Of a stretch of DNA of 64,000 bases, positions 7,524 through 15,753 are shown piece after piece. Numbering within the stretch: position 1 is the stretch's first letter; each line of letters starts with the position of its first letter. The notes below the pieces were generated by a model. The model was not told the origin of the DNA, made no database searches, and saw only the letters and a program-made list of their open reading frames with translations. This stretch comes from Candidatus Marsarchaeota archaeon (lineage in GTDB: Archaea; Micrarchaeota; Micrarchaeia; Micrarchaeales; Micrarchaeaceae), in assembly GCA_023473665.1 (NCBI GenBank), contig JAMCYM010000002.1:1-64000 (forward strand), read 5' to 3'. A program made the translations under genes and the position numbers.

Positions 7524-8156
7524 CTACTTGCTAATGTGTTTCAGCGCGAATTTATACACGATATATAGTGCTATCGCGAATATGCCAACTGCTGTTAGCG
7601 TTATCACTGCGTTGTTGGTTGAGAGCGCCTTCATCCCGAAAATCAGGAGCACGGCATCGTATATCGCCGCGCCTGCAACCGAATACCCGAAGAACCTCTT
7701 CGGCTCCATCCGTGCAAAGCCCGCCGGGAAGCTCATTATCGTCCTTATGACGGGCACGAGCCTTGAGAGGAACACGGCCGCGAGGCCGTTGCGTGCGAAC
7801 CATGCGTCGAAGGCATCCAGCCTTTCCTGCGTCACGTGGAAGAACCTGAGGTGCCTGTAAACTACATCCTTGCCCAGGAAGTAGCCTATGTAATAGTCTA
7901 TCGCTATGCCTGCAAGGCTGCCAAGCAGCGCCGCAATGTATGCAGGCACGAAACGCAACGTGCCGTTCGCCACGAATATCCCAGCGAGCGGGAGTATCAC
8001 CTCGCTCGGCACGGGAATCGAGGAGCTCTCGAGGAGCATCAGCCCGAAGACCGCAAGCAGGCCGTAATGCGACATGAGCGTTTGTATTGTGGCGTAGGCG
8101 TTGCTGAAGAGGGAAGAAATTATGCCTAAGATTATGTAACTAACCATAAGTAACAC
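7524..8156 (-). CDS. DedA-family membrane protein
   Basis: A 210-aa polytopic membrane protein of the DedA/SNARE-associated (VTT domain) family, thought to act in lipid scrambling or flux and membrane homeostasis. Typical family features are 'ESSSIPVPSEVILPLAG' near residues 43-59, the G-x2-G-rich segment after it, and 'FLSRLVPVIRTIMSFPAGFARM' near 128-149, with the conserved Arg residues of the re-entrant loop. The length is standard. A single gene, transcribed towards the small coiled-coil protein and divergent from pelota. Confidence 0.9.
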   Translation of the reverse strand: MLLMVSYIILGIISSLFSNAYATIQTLMSHYGLLAVFGLMLLESSSIPVPSEVILPLAGIFVANGTLRFVPAYIAALLGSLAGIAIDYYIGYFLGKDVVYRHLRFFHVTQERLDAFDAWFARNGLAAVFLSRLVPVIRTIMSFPAGFARMEPKRFFGYSVAGAAIYDAVLLIFGMKALSTNNAVITLTAVGIFAIALYIVYKFALKHISK

Positions 8157-8252
8157 GTCTGCAATACTTGACTATCAAGGTTTATGAATGTTGGGGCGCA
8201 TCTGAAACGCGCAATCTTTAATGCTAAATATGTTTCCTGAGATGGACTGTTG

Positions 8253-9281
8253 ATGCGCATCATAAAGTTCTACGAGAACGACGGGACGCTTAAGGTCAAG
8301 GTCGACAGGCTGGAAGACCTATGGACCATACAGCGCGTCATATTTCCCGGAGATCTCGTGAAGTCGCAGAGCCTGCGCCGCTTCAAGTCCAGCGAAAGCG
8401 ATGTTGGCGAGCTCAAGGAAGTGGTGGTGCGCCTGCGCACCGAGAAGACCGAGCTGGACAAGAACGCGGAGCGCCTTAGGGTGATGGGCAAGATAGTGGA
8501 GGGCAAGCCCATGGACTACATAAGGCTCAATAGCTACCACACCCTCAACGTGGCGCCCGGTGACACGATAGAGATCACAAAGCCGAGATGGCCCAGTTAC
8601 ATGCTGGAAGTGGTGCGCGACTCTGTATCGGACATGAAAAAGCCGAGGCTCGGCATAATAGTGGCAGATGACGAGAAGGCCCAGCCCGCATATCTGCTCG
8701 GCTACGGCATAGAGTTCAAGAAGGAGATATACAGCGGCCTGAGCAAGAAGATGACGCCCAAGGACTTCGCCGAGCAGGAGAAGAAGTACTTCAAGGCAAT
8801 ATCTGATGCCATAGAAGAGATGAAAGTAGACACGGTGATACTCGCAGGGCCGGGCTTCACCAAGGACGACGTCAAGAAGTACATGGACGAGAATGGCATA
8901 ACAAAAAGGCTCACCAAGCGGCTAATGCTAGAGCAAGCGAGCACCCCGGAGCGTTCCGGCGTCTACGAGCTCATAAAGGGCGAGCGCGTGGCGGAGATAC
9001 TGGAGAAGGAGCGCATACGCGATGAATTCCTGCTCATGGAGAAATTTCTGCAGGGCCTGGACAGCAAATCATCGCGCTATGGAGCGAATAACGTAATGGA
9101 GGCGATAGGCGCGTATGAAGCCTCGACAGTCCTCGTGAACGACAGTGTGCTGGGCGCCAGCGAAGTGCAGGAGGCGCTGGCCGCTGCCGAGGAGAAGAAG
9201 TTAACCATAAAAGTCTTCAACTCTGACGACGAGGTGGGCCAGCAGCTCCATTCCTTCAAGGACATAGCGTCTATCGTGTGA
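8253..9281 (+). CDS. pelA: Pelota, ribosome rescue factor
   Basis: Archaeal pelota (Dom34), the aRF1-like protein that works with aABCE1 and an EF-1A-type GTPase to split stalled ribosomes. The N-terminal Sm-like domain starts MRIIKFYENDGTLKVKVDRLEDLW, and the central and C-terminal eRF1-like domains follow (for example VILAGPGFTKDDV near residue 196, and the last 100 residues). As expected for pelota, there is no GGQ motif. The ATG at 8253 is used; a TTG one codon earlier adds only one residue. It is 342 aa, the normal family size. Downstream is decayed transposon sequence, so the gene marks the left edge of the accessory island. Confidence 0.95.
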   Translation: MRIIKFYENDGTLKVKVDRLEDLWTIQRVIFPGDLVKSQSLRRFKSSESDVGELKEVVVRLRTEKTELDKNAERLRVMGKIVEGKPMDYIRLNSYHTLNVAPGDTIEITKPRWPSYMLEVVRDSVSDMKKPRLGIIVADDEKAQPAYLLGYGIEFKKEIYSGLSKKMTPKDFAEQEKKYFKAISDAIEEMKVDTVILAGPGFTKDDVKKYMDENGITKRLTKRLMLEQASTPERSGVYELIKGERVAEILEKERIRDEFLLMEKFLQGLDSKSSRYGANNVMEAIGAYEASTVLVNDSVLGASEVQEALAAAEEKKLTIKVFNSDDEVGQQLHSFKDIASIV

Positions 9282-9310
9282 GACGCTGGCCAAACCTTGG
9301 ACAGATTTTA

Positions 9311-9569
9311 ATGCAGGGGATAGGCTCAGACAAGGCTTCTATGGCGCAATATGTTCCATTACTTCGAATACTAACAGGACGAGTTCCTTACTCACTACCA
9401 CAAAAGAAGCAACGTAGAGACAACGAACATGGCTATAAAGACCAAGCTCGGCGACTTCCTCAAGAACAAGAACTACGTATCTCAGGCTAATGAACTCCTG
9501 TGCAAGCTGATAGCTTACAACATAACAGTCTTGATAAGTGCGATGTATGAGTTGGGGGATAGAAACTGA
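9311..9569 (+). pseudogene. Decayed DDE transposase, C-terminal remnant
   Basis: Reading 9324-9569 in one frame gives the C-terminal pattern of IS4/IS5-like DDE transposases: an LWRNMFHYFEY-like block, then DEFLTHYHKRSNVETT and NELLCKLIAYNITVLISAMYELG. An in-frame TAA (9372-9374) interrupts it, and the upstream part (GIGSDKAS, 9315-9338) is in another frame, so there is at least one frameshift and one nonsense change. Only about 85 codons survive. The conserved Glu of NVETT fits the third catalytic residue of the DDE triad. It follows pelA directly. No terminal repeats were identified. Confidence 0.75.
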
Positions 9570-9576
9570 TTTAGGA

Positions 9577-10533
9577 TTAAAGCCTGTTATTAAGGTAGAT
9601 TAGTCGCTCTATTAGTTCAGGTATTTTTAGTGCGTCTACCTCATTCTTATTTGAATAAAAAGTTAGAGAGTGCGCACCAGAATTAGAGGTTTCTCTTATT
9701 GGTTTAATCAACGTCAAAATAACTTCAACTACTGGCACATCTGGTGCGAAATTTGCCTTTCTTGTCTCCAATTCATCTATAAGAACAGAAAAATCCTTGA
9801 AGCGACGTTTGTTGGTAATGTAATACACATCAAGACCGTTAATTGCAACAGGATATTTTTTCCTTAAAATATCAATTAGTAAATTCTCCACTAATTTTCG
9901 TGATAACATAAGCGCAGAAGTAAACAAACTATAACTGTAAGCCTTATTTATCTCATTTTTTAGATTCTCATATAACGGTTCACCTAAATCCATCATTATA
10001 AATACATTTGATAGATACGGTGTTATAGAGATTGTAAGCGTAGTGTCTGCATAACTGAACTGCTTTGAGGTTTCGTCATATTGTATTCCATTTTCCTTTA
10101 ATGACTCTATAAGCTCTGGGCGCCAATATTTAATCTGTTCGCCCTGTTCATTCCAACTGTTCCAAGTATATCCTTTTACAGTATGGTCTACCAGTACTTC
10201 TTTTGCAAACTTTAATGTATCTTCAGTAGTTAAAACTGCCATTAATGTTTTTCTCAGTTCGCCCCTCAATATGCCTCTTTTGTCCCTATCAGATAATCCC
10301 TCGTAAAGCTCGGATGGTGGATTTTCCATCTCCGACATGAATTTTTTTAAAATTGCAGTAACATCTTTTGATAATTGTAAAGACAATAGCACTTTTGCTC
10401 CAGTAGTACCTACGGTAAGCGGTCTTTCATAGTCATACCTAAAAGCTAATATTTTAATGAGAAGCTCATTTATCCTTGGATTAATTACTATGTCATTTAC
10501 GTTTGGCATAAGCTCACTAATAGATAGTATCAC
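9577..10533 (-). CDS. HEPN/DUF4145-like protein in the AT-rich island
   Basis: A 318-aa protein with no full-length match that I recognise. The C-terminal third resembles DUF4145/HEPN-type helical domains: LSRKLVENLLIDILRKKYP, then after a linker IRETSNSGAH, in which Arg280 and His288 match the R...H pattern seen in DUF4145 proteins. Such domains occur in abortive-infection and toxin-like RNases. The N-terminal 200 residues are unassigned. Base composition is markedly AT-rich compared with flanking housekeeping genes, suggesting transfer. An inverted repeat lies just upstream of the start (10538-10582). The domain call is tentative. Confidence 0.55.
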   Translation of the reverse strand: MILSISELMPNVNDIVINPRINELLIKILAFRYDYERPLTVGTTGAKVLLSLQLSKDVTAILKKFMSEMENPPSELYEGLSDRDKRGILRGELRKTLMAVLTTEDTLKFAKEVLVDHTVKGYTWNSWNEQGEQIKYWRPELIESLKENGIQYDETSKQFSYADTTLTISITPYLSNVFIMMDLGEPLYENLKNEINKAYSYSLFTSALMLSRKLVENLLIDILRKKYPVAINGLDVYYITNKRRFKDFSVLIDELETRKANFAPDVPVVEVILTLIKPIRETSNSGAHSLTFYSNKNEVDALKIPELIERLIYLNNRL

Positions 10534-10537
10534 ATTC

Positions 10538-10582
10538 TGCTCATAAATTATTAAATCTGCTCAGTAATAGGATTTATGAGCA
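10538..10582. promoter_or_regulatory. Inverted repeat upstream of the HEPN-like gene
   Basis: TGCTCATAAAT (10538-10548) and ATTTATGAGCA (10572-10582) are perfect 11-bp inverted copies separated by 23 bp; a further TGCTCA lies between them at 10558-10563. The site starts 5 bp upstream of the start codon at 10533 and fits an operator or an element end. Confidence 0.5.
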
Positions 10583-10614
10583 GCATTTATTAGCAAAGCC
10601 CTCCTGGACGGCCT

Positions 10615-10675
10615 TGTTTAAAAACTCTGAATCTGTCTAAAAACTCATTTGTTTGTCTAAAAAGTGTCTAAAAAC
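10615..10675 (+). repeat. Four iteron-like direct repeats TGTYTAAAAA
   Basis: Copies begin at 10615, 10634, 10654 and 10665. The first reads TGTTTAAAAA and the others TGTCTAAAAA. Spacings of 19, 20 and 11 bp are close to two, two and one helical turns, so bound proteins would sit roughly on one face of the DNA. This could be a binding site array for a replication or regulatory protein; function unknown. Confidence 0.5.
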
Positions 10676-10676
10676 C

Positions 10677-10748
10677 CTACCTAACTATGAGCCTGTATTT
10701 TATGCCCCTCTTCTCGCACCATTCCTTGGCTTTGTAGAAATAATACGA
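10677..10748 (-). pseudogene. Possible C-terminal gene fragment
   Basis: On the minus strand this short stretch reads SYYFYKAKEWCEKRGIKYRL followed by IVR and a stop, a protein-like tail with GC content higher than its surroundings. Stop codons directly upstream cut it off from any start. It may be the surviving end of a deleted gene; the family is not recognised. Confidence 0.25.
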
Positions 10749-10782
10749 TTAATTCTACAGATTTATGATTAAAACGACAAAA

Positions 10783-11280
10783 TCAGTTTTCGTGTCCTTC
10801 TTTGCATATTTTATACAGTGTTTCTATGTTATTGATGGCTTTATCACCATCATTAATTATTATGTTATCCTTTTTATCCTGTTTTTTAAGTGCTTCATAA
10901 TCACTTAGATTTCTATTAGCTGTGAAGATTATACTCTGAAATGGCGGGTCTTTGGAACTAACATAAAGCGTATGCTCCCATATTCGCTTTACTTCATCCT
11001 CAATAGCTTCAATATCTAATGGCTCATTCTGTGGTCTTATTGCTGGTTCTAAGATATTGATTGTAGAATCATCTATTTCATTAGTAAGCTCTGTTGCAAA
11101 ACGATCAAACGATTTTTTAGAGGTTATAATTTGTTTCCTCTTATTTTGCAATGTATTTGTGTTGATATACATAAGTTTATACACAAAGTTGGCAAAAGTT
11201 GTGCCATTTAATTTCTCCTTTATCTCCATTATCCCATTAAAATCAAAAATAATTCTATACGGAATAAAAGATCTGGTCAT
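10783..11280 (-). CDS. Hypothetical protein, second gene of a two-gene island operon
   Basis: A 165-aa Lys/Asp/Asn-rich soluble protein of no recognised family, in strongly AT-rich sequence. The start at 11280 lies 9 bp after the stop of the 80-aa protein on the same strand, so the two are almost certainly co-transcribed and perhaps translationally coupled. The small-then-larger gene order, the shared promoter with a palindrome and the mobile neighbourhood resemble a toxin-antitoxin arrangement, but no known toxin fold or catalytic motif was recognised, so this is only a suggestion from context. Confidence 0.6.
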   Translation of the reverse strand: MTRSFIPYRIIFDFNGIMEIKEKLNGTTFANFVYKLMYINTNTLQNKRKQIITSKKSFDRFATELTNEIDDSTINILEPAIRPQNEPLDIEAIEDEVKRIWEHTLYVSSKDPPFQSIIFTANRNLSDYEALKKQDKKDNIIINDGDKAINNIETLYKICKEGHEN

Positions 11281-11289
11281 AGAAATAGC

Positions 11290-11532
11290 CTACTTTAGAT
11301 ATTTGCTAATGAAAGTAGGGTCAATTTTTGTTATATCAACTATTTTTATAGCACCACTCCTAACTTTCTTAACTAATAGCAGATCATCTGAATTAAGACC
11401 GTCCATCTTATTGATAAGTGAATTGTCATCAAGTATCAACGGATCTATTTTTATAAGGTCTTTTATATCGGCTACACTATCAACATCGTAGAACGTAACT
11501 GATGCAGGAATAGTGGCACCATCGGTCATCAT
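11290..11532 (-). CDS. Small hypothetical protein, first gene of a two-gene island operon
   Basis: An 80-aa acidic, Asp/Ile/Lys-rich protein. Two adjacent ATG codons (11532 and 11529) are possible starts; aaggtgat directly before them is a strong match to the 16S tail and favours the second ATG. No domain is recognised. A TATA-like sequence on the minus strand (11576-11583) is followed by a palindrome (11551-11568), a typical arrangement for an autoregulated small protein such as an antitoxin. The gene for the 165-aa protein follows after 9 bp. Confidence 0.6.
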   Translation of the reverse strand: MMTDGATIPASVTFYDVDSVADIKDLIKIDPLILDDNSLINKMDGLNSDDLLLVKKVRSGAIKIVDITKIDPTFISKYLK

Positions 11533-11550
11533 ATCACCTTGATATAATTA

Positions 11551-11583
11551 TCTCATTTAGATATGAGAAGATATGTTTATAAA
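11551..11583 (-). promoter_or_regulatory. Promoter and palindromic operator of the two-gene operon
   Basis: Reading the minus strand, the TATA-like sequence tttataaa (11583-11576) is followed by the inverted repeat TCTCAT-N6-ATGAGA (11551-11568), then by aaggtgat and the start codon. A repressor bound at the palindrome would block initiation. Confidence 0.5.
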
Positions 11584-11625
11584 CCTTAACATAAGCATCA
11601 ATTTGAAGAAGTTTGGATCAAACGA

Positions 11626-11808
11626 CTATTTTCTCTCCAAGTTTGCTTTTGTGTATCCGTGTTCATTTAAGAATGCCTCGATAATGCTGGCACAGACCTT
11701 AGAATCTGAATCTGTCTTATAGACTCTATCTTTAAGATCTTGGACTATCTCATAAATACCTAAATCGAAAGTAACCTGAATTTTCTTCGAGCCTTTATCT
11801 TTCTCCAT
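11626..11808 (-). CDS. Ribbon-helix-helix-like DNA-binding protein at the element boundary
   Basis: A 60-aa protein (from the ATG at 11808) with the look of a ribbon-helix-helix regulator: a short strand KIQVTFDLG, then two helices around YEIVQDLKDRVYK and SKVCASIIEAFLNEHGYTK. The open frame continues upstream to a GTG at 11886, inside the left inverted repeat of the neighbouring transposon, which suggests that the insertion altered the original upstream region. A TGGACA-N5-TGTCCA palindrome (11858-11874) lies about 50 bp before the ATG and could be its operator. RHH assignment is by pattern only. Confidence 0.5.
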   Translation of the reverse strand: MEKDKGSKKIQVTFDLGIYEIVQDLKDRVYKTDSDSKVCASIIEAFLNEHGYTKANLERK

Positions 11809-11857
11809 AAAGCCTTGAAGTTGTCCATAAAGTAGTAGTTTTTGAACAAGGCTCTCC

Positions 11858-11874
11858 TGGACAGGTATTGTCCA
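11858..11874. promoter_or_regulatory. Palindrome TGGACA-N5-TGTCCA
   Basis: A perfect 6-bp inverted repeat with a 5-bp spacer, lying between the transposon end (11879) and the RHH-like gene start (11808). It is a plausible operator for the RHH-like protein; not tested. Confidence 0.4.
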
Positions 11875-11878
11875 CAAA

Positions 11879-11913
11879 CTCGGCACCTAAATCAGGATGT
11901 CGTATTCGGCACC
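11879..11913 (+). repeat. Left terminal inverted repeat
   Basis: A 35-bp end with CTCGGCACC at 11879-11887 and ATGTCGTATTCGGCACC at 11897-11913. It pairs as an inverted copy with 15039-15073 (25 of 35 positions identical). Confidence 0.7.
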
Positions 11914-11944
11914 TTAAGTTTTGATGCTAATAAAGTGTTAGGCT

Positions 11945-12538
11945 ATGTTTCCGCTATTATTAAACCTTTTTAAAGATAGCATGTTTAATCTGACTATGGC
12001 AATTTGGGTATTTGTATCTCTTTTTGTGCTTGCTGTATTTATTGTATCTTTTGTCTTTGTATTAGCTTACTTCATAATGGATATTTATAGAAGATTCCAT
12101 AAGCGTTTTAAGAATCCACTCGAAGATATACTTAGCATCTTGATTGTCATTTACTTTGCAAGCCTGCTTATTCTCATAGTATCTGCCTTTGAAATTAATT
12201 ACCTACACGACCCACTAAACGCAAGCACAACAAATACTATATATGACCAATTTGCATCTTTCATAAATTGGATTGTAGATAACCTTGTGCCTATAGTGGG
12301 TTCCAGCATTGTTATAGGTATAATTGTGGCGAGCTTCTCTGCGGGTAGAGCATGGAATAGAGTATCAAATGTATTAAAACAATTTGAACCAGATAATCCT
12401 GAATCTATCCCGAAGCGATTAGAAAAAATGGGAAACTCATTAACCAAAATAGAATCTAAAGTGGATAGAACAAAAGAGGACATTGACAAACTTGATGGCG
12501 AATATAACGAACACATAAGGATTCACCACTCTAAATAA
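11945..12538 (+). CDS. Membrane protein, passenger of the transposon
   Basis: A 197-aa protein of no recognised family. Three to four hydrophobic segments are visible (about residues 15-50, 60-82 and 105-128), followed by a charged C-terminal tail (about 140-197) with heptad-like Leu/Ile spacing that may form a coiled coil. The ATG at 11945 is 31 bp inside the left terminal repeat, and the stop is 2 bp from the end of the convergent transposase gene. Location inside the inverted repeats marks it as cargo. The role is unknown. Confidence 0.6.
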   Translation: MFPLLLNLFKDSMFNLTMAIWVFVSLFVLAVFIVSFVFVLAYFIMDIYRRFHKRFKNPLEDILSILIVIYFASLLILIVSAFEINYLHDPLNASTTNTIYDQFASFINWIVDNLVPIVGSSIVIGIIVASFSAGRAWNRVSNVLKQFEPDNPESIPKRLEKMGNSLTKIESKVDRTKEDIDKLDGEYNEHIRIHHSK

Positions 12539-12540
12539 GG

Positions 12541-13713
12541 TCACTGACTTAATTTTATCAGGCTCAGCCACCTATTCCTGTTCGCACCTATGCTTATCCC
12601 AGCAACCTCAGAAGGTGTCAGTCCGTTAAAAGTCATGTGTGGTTTTATGAAGTTGTAATACGTCTTCCAATTCTCTATGTATTGCTCGGCGGTCTTTTCG
12701 TTCTTTAGACCTCTTATTACCTTGTCTCGCTCCCTAAACGTCGCATGATATCGCTCTATGAGCTGGTTGTCCACCTTCTTTGTCATGTGATAGACCCTCT
12801 CATGCGGCTTGTCCCTAAGCCTCTCAGGGACAAACAAGCGTCCATGTGTCGGGAACTCTTGACGTATCGCCTTTTTGTAGAACTGCCCTTTGTCTGTGGC
12901 AATCTCCTTAGGCTTCTGCGATAGGTAAGGCTTTGCCTTCTGTATTATGTTTCTTGCATCGTTTATGAACCTTGCCCTTGTTATCTGGTTAGCCAGCAGA
13001 AACCTTGTCTTATTGTCAAGGACGTTCCAGCACCACTCGTTCTCCTTGCCGATTTGGACTGACTGCTCGTCTATGTGTATCCTCTCACTTGTCTGTGGTT
13101 TCAGGTTTGCTGTGTAATCGTTTATCCTTGCCATGAAGCGGTTAATCCAGCGTCTTACTGTCTCATTGTGCAGTTTCAGCCCGAAGTTCTTGTAGAGCGT
13201 GTCCTGAATGTCCCTTAGACTATTGCCTTTGTAATACATATCAAGGGTAAGACAAACTATCCGAGCGTTGCCCTTTATGCCCTTAGTTGGGTCAAGGACG
13301 AAGAAGGCACCGCACTCTAAGCACCTGTATTTCTGCTTTGCTCCCGACTTGTTCTTCCTGAGACCCTTCTGTATTATCCTCTCGCTCTTGCAGTTGGGGC
13401 ACATCTTCTCGTCCATTATGCCCTCAACGTCGAAGTCGTCCATCTCGACCTTGTTCTTTAGCTTGTTGAACAGGATTATGGCGTCTATGTGCTTGCAATA
13501 GAGACCCTTGTCCTTGCACCTATATATGAAATCAGGGCAGTCGCAGGAATAGGTATCTATGTGGCTTACCTTGTATCTCTTAGTCCTATCGGAAGAGGGC
13601 ACCAGATAAACCCCTTCGTCAAGCACTTCTGGCACCGCTTTGTTGAGCAACGCCGACGCCCTCTCTTTCCTGACATTAGACTGCCTTTTCAAGACATTGC
13701 AATCCGCATTCAT
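12541..13713 (-). CDS. DDE transposase with N-terminal SWIM zinc finger (IS6/IS240-like core)
   Basis: A 390-aa transposase. Residues 57-74 form a SWIM finger (Cys57-x-Cys59 ... Cys72-x-His74). A zinc ribbon follows (Cys104, Cys107, Cys130, Cys133), then a helix-turn-helix-like region (about 150-195). The catalytic core has Asp214 (HIDEQS), Asp273 (ATDKG) and Glu318 (NQLIERYH), ending in the typical 'FIKPHMTFNGLTPSEVAG' tail of IS6/IS240-type transposases. Classical IS6 proteins are about 230-240 aa and lack the SWIM part. All key residues are present, so it may be active. It starts near a palindrome-rich divergent promoter shared with the zinc-ribbon gene. Confidence 0.88.
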   Translation of the reverse strand: MNADCNVLKRQSNVRKERASALLNKAVPEVLDEGVYLVPSSDRTKRYKVSHIDTYSCDCPDFIYRCKDKGLYCKHIDAIILFNKLKNKVEMDDFDVEGIMDEKMCPNCKSERIIQKGLRKNKSGAKQKYRCLECGAFFVLDPTKGIKGNARIVCLTLDMYYKGNSLRDIQDTLYKNFGLKLHNETVRRWINRFMARINDYTANLKPQTSERIHIDEQSVQIGKENEWCWNVLDNKTRFLLANQITRARFINDARNIIQKAKPYLSQKPKEIATDKGQFYKKAIRQEFPTHGRLFVPERLRDKPHERVYHMTKKVDNQLIERYHATFRERDKVIRGLKNEKTAEQYIENWKTYYNFIKPHMTFNGLTPSEVAGISIGANRNRWLSLIKLSQ

Positions 13714-13743
13714 AATCTCACAGTAATACTACGCAATAGAAGA

Positions 13744-13798
13744 TATATATACCTATTGGTATATTATTTATACTAAAGAATACGACGATAAGTTTAAA
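13744..13798. promoter_or_regulatory. Divergent promoter region between transposase and zinc-ribbon gene
   Basis: The TATA-like atatatata (about 13743-13750) serves the minus-strand transposase, and agtttaaata (13791-13800) the plus-strand gene, whose ATG is about 25 bp further, consistent with a leaderless transcript. A palindrome, TATACC-TATT-GGTATA, lies at about 13748-13763 and may be an operator. Confidence 0.45.
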
Positions 13799-13823
13799 TA
13801 CTTATTAGTATAATACTTCTAAT

Positions 13824-13964
13824 ATGGCAAAGGTAAAAATCGACGGGTATAAATGCGAGAGGTGCGGACATATTTGGTTTCCGAGAAGCTATACTACGCA
13901 AGAGCCCAAAGTATGTCCTCGCTGTAAATCACCCTATTGGAATAAGCCCCGAAATGTGAAATAA
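13824..13964 (+). CDS. 46-aa zinc-ribbon protein
   Basis: A very small protein with one zinc ribbon: Cys11-x2-Cys14 (KCERCGHIW) and Cys31-x2-Cys34 (VCPRCKSPYW), the rest being basic. Free-standing zinc ribbons of this kind are common in archaeal plasmids, viruses and integrated elements, where they are thought to bind nucleic acid or partner proteins. The TATA box about 25 bp upstream suggests leaderless translation from the ATG at 13824. It lies inside the transposon-like element, divergent from the transposase, and could regulate or assist it; this role is inferred. Confidence 0.7.
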   Translation: MAKVKIDGYKCERCGHIWFPRSYTTQEPKVCPRCKSPYWNKPRNVK

Positions 13965-14120
13965 GCACCATATACATTGGTTCTTCTCTCATGCCTGAAT
14001 TGTATGGTACTCTGACGATATCAAGAGCTAACTATTAACCTTTTGTATAGTCTGATGGATAGCTTTAAATAGTTATTTCTTCACAATACTGTACGGGGAA
14101 TTGTCCCATAGGTCGATAAA
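13965..14120 (+). promoter_or_regulatory. Promoter and leader of the DUF5343-like gene
   Basis: The TATA-like gctttaaata (14062-14071) lies about 50 bp before the TTG start at 14121. The leader contains gggaattgtccc (about 14097-14108), a short imperfect palindrome that may be a regulatory site. Nothing else is seen in this interval. Confidence 0.4.
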
Positions 14121-14915
14121 TTGACTGAAACAGAAAAACCGTTGGTGTTGCCTTATAACGTCAATATAGACGTCTTGTTCAAGGTAGTGGATGAGCTTCG
14201 CACTGCTGGTCAAGGGGGCGAGAAGAAGGCAGTAGTGTGGCAACACATAGGTCAGGACAAGAAGGCGAGTTATAGCTACGTCTTCAATATGGCTAAGGCG
14301 TTGGGGTTCATAGAAGATGACTATACTACGGCAAAGATAACCTCTTTTGGTAAGAGTGTTGGCTTTCTATCTGGGGAAAAGAAGAATGAAACACTTGCCA
14401 GAAATCTGCCTGCTCTGTATAACACCATATTGAAGTGGGTTTATTATAGCGATGCAAAGGAATTGGAGACAAACGACATTAAGTCACGCCTAAGTTCGTC
14501 AGGAATTACACTACCTGACAGTGTACTGGATGCTGGTGTAGGAACGTTTGCTCATTACTGCGAGCGGTTGGGTATCTTGAGATACATCGGGAGAGGGAAG
14601 GGAACGAAAGTTGTCCTGACGGACTTCGGTAAGCGAATATTTGGGAGTAGTACTACAGATATGTCAGCACAGGATAACAAATCAGAAGAGGTAGATACGT
14701 CGCGGTCGGGAGACACCCCGCAACAGAAACAAGGTATTGCAGTTGCAGGCGAATACGTTGTCCGCATAATAACTCCCGATAGGGATTTCGTTTGGGACAT
14801 CAGGGCAATCTCTGATTTGCCACAATTCAAGGCAATACTTGACGCGACGGAGAAAGCGATAGAAGAGGACTGGAAGAGGAAACACCAGAATAATACGGAA
14901 AATCACGCTGATTAA
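14121..14915 (+). CDS. DUF5343-like winged-helix protein, passenger of the transposon
   Basis: A 264-aa protein with the layout of DUF5343-type proteins: an N-terminal winged-helix region (about 15-80, 'AVVWQHIGQDKKASYSYVFN' to 'LGFIEDD'), and a second helical part with 'LPDSVLDAGVGTFAHYCERL' (about 134-153) followed by a wing and a Ser/Gln-rich linker. The C-terminal 60 residues are separate and unassigned. Such proteins are found near mobile and defence genes; no molecular function is established. The start is TTG at 14121. It is the last gene before the right inverted repeat. Family assignment is moderately sure. Confidence 0.55.
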   Translation: MTETEKPLVLPYNVNIDVLFKVVDELRTAGQGGEKKAVVWQHIGQDKKASYSYVFNMAKALGFIEDDYTTAKITSFGKSVGFLSGEKKNETLARNLPALYNTILKWVYYSDAKELETNDIKSRLSSSGITLPDSVLDAGVGTFAHYCERLGILRYIGRGKGTKVVLTDFGKRIFGSSTTDMSAQDNKSEEVDTSRSGDTPQQKQGIAVAGEYVVRIITPDRDFVWDIRAISDLPQFKAILDATEKAIEEDWKRKHQNNTENHAD

Positions 14916-14931
14916 TCAGGATACGGGATGA

Positions 14932-14977
14932 ACACGGGGGGAACACCTGTCCACCAGATAGGCAGTTCCCCTCGTGT
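14932..14977. repeat. Long hairpin inside the right end of the transposon
   Basis: ACACGGGGGGAAC (14932-14944) pairs with GTTCCCCTCGTGT (14965-14977), 12 of 13 positions, around a 20-nt loop. It starts 17 bp after the stop codon of the DUF5343-like gene and ends about 60 bp before the right terminal repeat. It could be a transcription end, a replication or transposition signal, or a structured RNA. Confidence 0.5.
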
Positions 14978-15038
14978 CTGTATCATACAATATTTTTTAT
15001 CCTCGATAATCTATATACCTTTCGGTAATATCGTGCTG

Positions 15039-15073
15039 GGTGCCGAATGCGACATTACATCACGGGTGCCGAG
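15039..15073 (-). repeat. Right terminal inverted repeat
   Basis: GGTGCCGAATGCGACAT at 15039-15055 and GGTGCCGAG at 15065-15073 form the inverted partner of the left end. AT-rich sequence gives way to host-like GC content soon afterwards. Confidence 0.7.
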
Positions 15074-15186
15074 GATGCGACAGAACCCCTGGACACAAGC
15101 TTTAAATATGATGCGCCTTCACAAGATATTGACAGAGGGGCAATCATAGCTCCGCATATACAACCAGGCAGTTAGCCGGTGTGAAG

Positions 15187-15297
15187 ATGCAGTTGCAAAC
15201 GTTGCGCACGTGGTATATAGGCTCATCCTTTAGGCGCAGCGTCAGCATCGATTGCATCATGAAGCTCACACCAAACAACTACCACCTGGCTGCATAA
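15187..15297 (+). CDS. Possible 36-aa small protein
   Basis: A short open frame starting at the ATG at 15187, preceded by ggtgtgaag, which fits the ribosome-binding pattern used by many genes here (GGTG about 5 nt before the start). The product is mildly basic and of no recognised family. A TATA-like 'agctttaaatatg' lies about 75 bp upstream (near 15099-15111). Without comparison to relatives it cannot be told apart from chance. Confidence 0.25.
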   Translation: MQLQTLRTWYIGSSFRRSVSIDCIMKLTPNNYHLAA

Positions 15298-15324
15298 ACA
15301 CTTTCCAGAAAAGAGGTGTTTCAT

Positions 15325-15717
15325 GTGGGCCGGATGGTAGTAGAAACTAGAGTATATTCTAAGGCGGTTGTGCTTACTGAGCGCGAGCAGCTGCTCATGC
15401 TCGAGATAGGCACCGATAGCATAGACAGCGCCAGCTCGTTCGTCAACTACATCAGCGAGATGTATGGCTTTTCGAAGAGCTCGGTGTGGTACACGCTCAA
15501 CAAGCTGAAGGAGCGCGGGCTTGCCGATTTTGCGAGCAAGGAAGAGCCTGGCAAGGGGCTCAGCCTGACGCAGTCTGGCATGGCGGGGATGCGCGGTATG
15601 GAGCGCCAGAAGGCCGCAATACTTGACAAGTTCGCCAACTCTTTCCTGAGCGGAGCTGATGCTCCACTCCAGGACGACAGCACCTGGGCGAGGATGAGCA
15701 TAAGGACAAGGGCATAG
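15325..15717 (+). CDS. Winged-helix transcriptional regulator-like protein
   Basis: A protein of about 130 aa with a winged-helix fold pattern: helices around 'REQLLMLEIG' and 'SASSFVNYISEMYGFSKSSV', the recognition helix 'SVWYTLNKLKERGLADFASK' and a wing leading into a C-terminal helix. This resembles PadR/MarR-size single-domain regulators; the DNA target is unknown. Of several in-frame starts (GTG 15316, GTG 15325, ATG 15334), 15325 is preferred because gaggtg lies 6 bp before it. It is followed by a strong hairpin and then ilvE. It lies just right of the transposon but has host-like composition. Confidence 0.6.
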   Translation: MGRMVVETRVYSKAVVLTEREQLLMLEIGTDSIDSASSFVNYISEMYGFSKSSVWYTLNKLKERGLADFASKEEPGKGLSLTQSGMAGMRGMERQKAAILDKFANSFLSGADAPLQDDSTWARMSIRTRA

Positions 15718-15730
15718 GTGGTGAAGCAGC

Positions 15731-15753
15731 GCGCAGGGGCAAAGCCCCTGCGC
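15731..15753 (+). terminator. Perfect 10-bp hairpin with three-base loop
   Basis: GCGCAGGGGC (15731-15740), loop AAA, GCCCCTGCGC (15744-15753). It lies 14 bp after the stop of the winged-helix gene. There is no T-run, so it may be a processing or stability structure rather than a true terminator. Confidence 0.5.

Follow-up and report, generated by a model that had tools for sequence, protein, structure and literature searches.

A cargo-carrying transposon with compound ends and an IS6-related SWIM transposase in a Micrarchaeota genome

Here we report a transposon of 3224 bp (positions 11864-15087) in a 64,000-nucleotide stretch of DNA, hereafter the window, which belongs to a Micrarchaeota genome (G000; 779 kb in three contigs). 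The element encloses four open reading frames, all found where an earlier reading of the window (the original prediction) had placed them: a 197-aa membrane protein with about four transmembrane segments by hydropathy (11945-12538, + strand), a 390-aa transposase (12541-13713, - strand), a 46-aa zinc-ribbon protein that is divergent from the transposase and a putative accessory DNA-binding protein (13824-13964, + strand), and a 264-aa protein with a TTG start and no recognised family (14121-14915, + strand). The G + C content of the element is 0.43, versus 0.53 for the window.

The element is bounded by two compound ends of about 50 bp each. The left end (11864-11913, + strand; full sequence GGTATTGTCCACAAACTCGGCACCTAAATCAGGATGTCGTATTCGGCACC) has the tip GGTATTGTC and is kept among relatives; the right end (15038-15087, - strand; reversed, GGTTCTGTCGCATCCTCGGCACCCGTGATGTAATGTCGCATTCGGCACC) has the tip GGTTCTGTCGCAT; each carries two TCGGCACC tags 26 bp apart. 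The two CGGCACC motifs that had been predicted for each end are indeed present in a fixed and inverted arrangement (11881 and 11907 on the + strand, 15039 and 15065 on the - strand). The predicted extent of 11879-15073 proved too small, and the boundaries were moved out because an IS6-like tip of about 15 bp lies outside each of the proposed 35-bp ends. Beyond the tips lies a perfect 8-bp target-site duplication that the prediction had missed, CCTGGACA, whose unstranded left copy (11856-11863) is identical to the right copy (15088-15095).

A genome of the same genus (G001) contains the uninterrupted target CTTGGACACAAGC. Window positions 7552-9275 and 15087-15753 align with this genome, where just 87 bp separate them, and the right-hand homology begins at 15087, the edge of the element. 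A further segment (9276-11855), distinct from the transposon, is also missing from G001, so this genome documents the right junction and the target, not the otherwise identical empty site for which the original prediction had proposed to search. The transposon is real and intact. It is the one complete copy in its own genome, which has a single transposase copy and no sign of recent multicopy expansion.

The transposase joins a SWIM finger (ligands C57, C59, C73 and H75), a zinc ribbon (C105, C108, C131 and C134), a helix-turn-helix (HTH) and an IS240-type DDE core (D215, D274 and E320) in a single protein, as predicted for all but the HTH, and the SWIM, ribbon and DDE positions are all invariant in seven aligned copies. 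Its Pfam matches to IS240 (PF13610; 3e-16) and SWIM (PF04434; 2e-4) both pass the curated cut-offs, and the NCBIfam IS6 equivalog score (109.2 bits) falls under the cut-off of 125. An AlphaFold model based on seven sequences had a pLDDT of 41; the model used here, based on 19 sequences, reached 71.7, with low values in the SWIM region. An RNase-H core is supported by this model (Z about 16), and the modelled core resembles retroviral integrases and TnsB (Z 14-16 over about 140 residues). The best full-length structural match is ISCth4 of the IS256 family (6xg8), yet it shares 12% identity and has a different domain content.

The SWIM finger had been considered notable as a trait of eukaryotic Mutator-like transposases. 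SWIM is shared with these, but a MULE transposase domain was not found in the window transposase, which had no match to MULE or Transposase_mut in Pfam at E<1. Because IS5-like SWIM transposases are common in the same phylum (L026, L028-L030), SWIM is not diagnostic of Mutator-like elements and does not distinguish the new element from prokaryotic ones; nothing links it to Mutator-like elements. The IS5-like proteins share with the new transposase the N-terminal SWIM and a zinc-ribbon neighbour of the 46-aa type, which adjoins them in six other genomes; they differ in having a DDE_Tnp_1 core, not IS240.

A protein search of 148 relatives recovered homologues, the nearest full-length ones with 66-78% identity, in genomes that belong to a single order and to two of its families. 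Including that of the window, nine Micrarchaeota copies are two-ended, and each of them has a perfect 8-bp duplication and the same end plan. The duplications of the other eight are GCTTTAGA (G042), GCGCTGAG (G005), CTTCAATC (G100), GTCTTTTT (G111), ACAGAACG (G107), CTAAAAAT (G088), CCGCATGC (G076) and CTGAAAAG (G094, where the element is split over two contigs). Complete elements on single contigs measure 2175-4381 bp, and all nine two-ended autonomous copies carry both cargo and doubled ends. A non-autonomous copy of 488 bp in G103 has both ends, a duplication matching at 7/8 positions and one membrane ORF of 100 aa, and lacks a transposase. Doubled ends and 9-bp duplications also delimit complete elements on two contigs labelled as viral by IMG/VR, one of 4889 bp (L181; 18/18 end match) and one of 2848 bp (L076). 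A single order of Micrarchaeota gives the best view of the family, and its distant members lie on IMG/VR contigs. Phage records yielded no match and plasmid records only distant IS6-type matches (<60% identity); the SWIM-less IS6-like relatives L061, L063, L065 and L067 had no clear similar ends flanked by duplications.

The ends follow a common grammar. In the window element, the tip of each end is IS6-like (GGTWYTGTC), and the end has TGTCGCAT-n-TCGGCACC twice in direct orientation, at a distance of 26 bp. Across the family, the outer unit is GGTWYTGTC followed by GCATnn or nACAAAC and the tag, and the inner unit is TGTCGCAT followed by the tag. The 8-bp tag differs from element to element (classes TCGGCACC, TCATTACC, TCGTCAGT/TCGTCATC and TCGGTTG) and is near-identical at all four sites inside one element; the tags of an element's two ends agree at 7.19 of 8 positions versus 5.67 of 8 by shuffling (p 1e-4). 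Among 24 ends read, the tag-to-tag distance was as a rule 26 bp. The TCATTACC class alone had 36 bp, longer by one turn of the helix, and a few divergent ends had 27-29 bp. The exact pattern CGGCACC-N19-CGGCACC occurred in five genomes in a search of the 148 relatives, all with this transposase. A tag-free end-core pattern matched 27 ends in 18 of 301 Micrarchaeota genomes, versus none in the reversed control. Transposase copies with different ends, which the original prediction had set against itself, do exist; only the tag and, once, the spacing differ while the architecture is the same, so the finding is refined rather than refuted.

Several end loci have one recognisable end only, and several in relatives have decayed. 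The window's own genome contains a second, lone compound end (G000:C3:21293-21336; L121 6294) with the tag TCGGTGCC, which has no partner end and no transposase nearby; for single-end loci, this one included, no matching duplications were found within 9 kb. At the right end in G094 (L078, 1845 region) the unit occurs three times in tandem, with the third copy 26 bp farther inward.

The cargo differs among copies. In G042 it is a 796-aa protein with HSDR_N, N6_Mtase and a specificity region, and in G100 and G094 a fusion of N6_N4_Mtase and Mrr_cat, accompanied in G094 by PDC-M24A/B; all of these defence genes lie inside two ends with matching duplications. L181 carries a type IIG restriction-modification (RM) system (PADLOC 5e-127). 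Loci with one recognised end carry an AAA ATPase (AriA/PDC-M38A-like) and a 235-aa protein (G041), methylase-Mrr (G090, G124 and G067) or SoFic (G004). All four close homologues of the methylase-Mrr fusion (at least 57% identity) lie at a transposon end, versus G067 alone among 14 farther homologues (31-41%). The remaining cargo consists of small membrane proteins, some of them recurrent (205/222 aa in G111/G107; 214/206 aa in G088/G041). Annotation thus shows defence cargo in several copies of the family (type I/IIG RM, methylase-Mrr, PDC-M24 and the AriA-like ATPase), and a comparison of the sequences shows that cargo is freely exchanged between elements.

The suggestion that the cargo may be a defence unit therefore holds for several relatives but is not shown for the window copy, in which no defence gene is recognisable. 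The 264-aa and 197-aa proteins have no PADLOC match, and with a cargo made up of a membrane protein and a protein without a family, a defence role of the window copy is unproven. The 197-aa protein gave only a weak match, to a 93-aa membrane protein of another element. Part of the 264-aa protein weakly resembles a protein encoded next to an IS6-like transposase in G276; the DUF5343-like label proposed for the 264-aa protein was dropped, with no support from profiles (nothing at Pfam gathering level), PADLOC, PHROGs, PDB, plasmid records or viral contigs.

When the transposase was split by domain, the tag-class signal was confined to the zinc ribbon (residues 101-145; 1/300 shuffles, versus 133/300 for SWIM). 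Residues 115-116 separate the tag classes (QK, KK, KQ and K[YF]), in a covariation that comprises 11 sequences and was spotted after looking. With the whole protein open to the search, 2/20,000 shuffles gave an equally good residue pair, and 26/20,000 did so when shuffling was kept inside two transposase clades. The transposase tree is poorly resolved, with one useful split (86/97 support), and two tag classes span it. Since the tag class follows residues 115-116 and not SWIM, the transposase's own zinc ribbon is likely to read the 8-bp tag. The SWIM finger was rejected as the reader, residues 1-100 being without class signal. The correspondence is blurred among distant members, in which it is not unique: L181 combines KK with a different tag, AGGGACTT, L076 combines KS with GGGAG, and L184 has KF with a left end of GGTTG type (class TCGGTTG) and a right end of GGGAC type.

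A small divergent gene of DNA-binding type, present beside each transposase checked, offers another candidate: its product (zinc ribbon, RHH-like or AbrB-like) might read the variable tag and steer the transposase to the right ends. The neighbour is a zinc ribbon in the window, G100, G094, G018 and L184 (homologues of the 46-aa protein having the same place in G100, G094 and G018), RHH-like in G042, G111, G107, G088, G090 and G041, beta-rich in G005 and G076, and AbrB/ChpS-like in L076; the RHH-like and beta-rich labels are read from the sequence, with no profile match behind them. That the zinc-ribbon type also accompanies the IS5-like SWIM transposases speaks for such a role. However, near-identical RHH-like proteins pair with different tags, TCGTCAGT in G111 and TCGGTTGT in G090, and zinc-ribbon proteins pair with both TCGGCACC and TCGGTTG. 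With the pairings of tag and protein type running counter to it, we rejected the small protein as tag reader and consider such a role unlikely.

It is quite improbable that the locus is domesticated or dead, a remnant of a defence island with relic ends. The single copy, the decayed end loci of relatives and the lower G + C content of the element would fit such a history, but the 390-aa ORF is intact, its metal-ligand and catalytic positions are complete, and both ends and the 8-bp duplication are perfect. Least probable, by a little, is the disfavoured reading that the element is simply an archaeal insertion sequence of the IS6 family whose passengers were picked up by chance, with doubled ends and cargo being incidental. 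The IS240/IS6 core speaks for it, as do the GG tips, the TGT motif and the duplications of 8 bp, which agree with the description of IS6 members (PMC7986276). Against it, cargo and doubled ends occur in nine of nine two-ended autonomous copies, and the ISfinder survey reports one passenger-bearing member, none above 1760 bp and single repeats of 15-20 bp.

Taking boundaries, duplications, end architecture, uninterrupted target, cargo exchange and tag-ribbon covariation from the sequence, we consider it highly probable that the element is an autonomous DDE transposon with cargo, a member of an IS6-related family that has two-unit ends, a ribbon-read tag and exchangeable, often antiviral cargo. 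Which protein binds what, the stoichiometry, the reaction type and the function of the window cargo we infer. The 390-aa transposase would bind two units at each end. There the conserved TGTCGCAT part adjoins the IS6-like tip, and the zinc ribbon is the most likely reader of the variable tag next to that part. A paired-end complex, built from two protomers at either end, would cut at the GG tips and insert with a stagger of 8 bp. SWIM probably has a part in binding DNA or in assembly, and the small divergent protein (zinc-ribbon; elsewhere ribbon-helix-helix-like or AbrB-like) may regulate or assist. Genes between the ends would travel along and often be exchanged, with compact antiviral systems in many copies.

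Within the IS6-related elements, a kind that is itself known, these transposons form a new branch with cargo and compound ends. With IS6/IS26 elements (archaeal; long zinc-finger clade h / VII) they share the IS240-type DDE core, zinc ribbon and HTH, GG tips with a TGT motif, and 8-bp duplications (nine perfect cases here). They differ in SWIM, the variable tag and an NCBIfam IS6 score below the cut-off (109 versus 125), in two units over about 50 bp per end instead of a single repeat of 15-20 bp, and in lengths of 2175-4381 bp with cargo instead of 700-1760 bp without passengers. The one passenger-bearing example named in the IS6 survey, ISDsp3 (PMC7986276), is likewise of IS6 type with a passenger gene, but measures 1456 bp, has one hypothetical passenger and lacks an intact zinc finger. 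Zinc-finger extensions are known from clostridial IS6 members (PMC6807381). The literature searched, with most subscription papers lying outside it, did not describe SWIM in any IS6-type element, and a passenger-rich, compound-ended branch was not found in the available portions of two IS6 surveys. Tn7-like transposons have repeated transposase sites at their ends, as does the new family. They also share boundaries that enclose exchangeable defence systems (PMC8649781), whereas the new family has a single transposase, no TnsA/C/D-type genes and simple 8-bp duplications.

IS6-type elements are important as gene mobilisers, and the family is one concrete route for small defence systems to move among DPANN archaea, in which RM and CRISPR-Cas are underrepresented according to a survey (PMC12988326). 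Its exact boundaries make unknown cargo minable by guilt by association. Through the covariation of ribbon residues and tag, the specificity of a DDE transposase can be put to a direct test and perhaps be reprogrammed. We tentatively propose, as a reading somewhat short of an even chance, that the ends have interchangeable addresses: two ribbon residues would choose the tag, of which each element has four copies. Sister elements of one lineage whose tags differ would consequently not cross-mobilise, and cargo-only copies with the right tag would be mobilised in trans. Genome-poor DPANN archaea would then have in this family a main vehicle for their compact antiviral systems, and the genes of the 264-aa protein and of the small membrane proteins would be defence genes that have escaped recognition.

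The segment to the left of the element has features of its own. Positions 9577-11532, missing from G001, encode a 318-aa protein with weak similarity to DUF4145 and two orphan ORFs. A 46-aa ORF at 9429-9569 resembles the C-terminus of IS5-like SWIM transposases (L026) and is thus a remnant of the other SWIM transposase, immediately to the left of the transposon. In G001 (G001:C9; L129, about 7500), the 87 bp at the uninterrupted site include an inverted repeat, TGTAGTTTAAT...ATTAAACTACA, perhaps the relic of another small element. In the window, CCTTGGACA- and TCCTGGACA-like copies (9295-9303 and 11855-11863) bracket the extra segment 9276-11855, which suggests that this target had already received an insertion before the transposon landed there.
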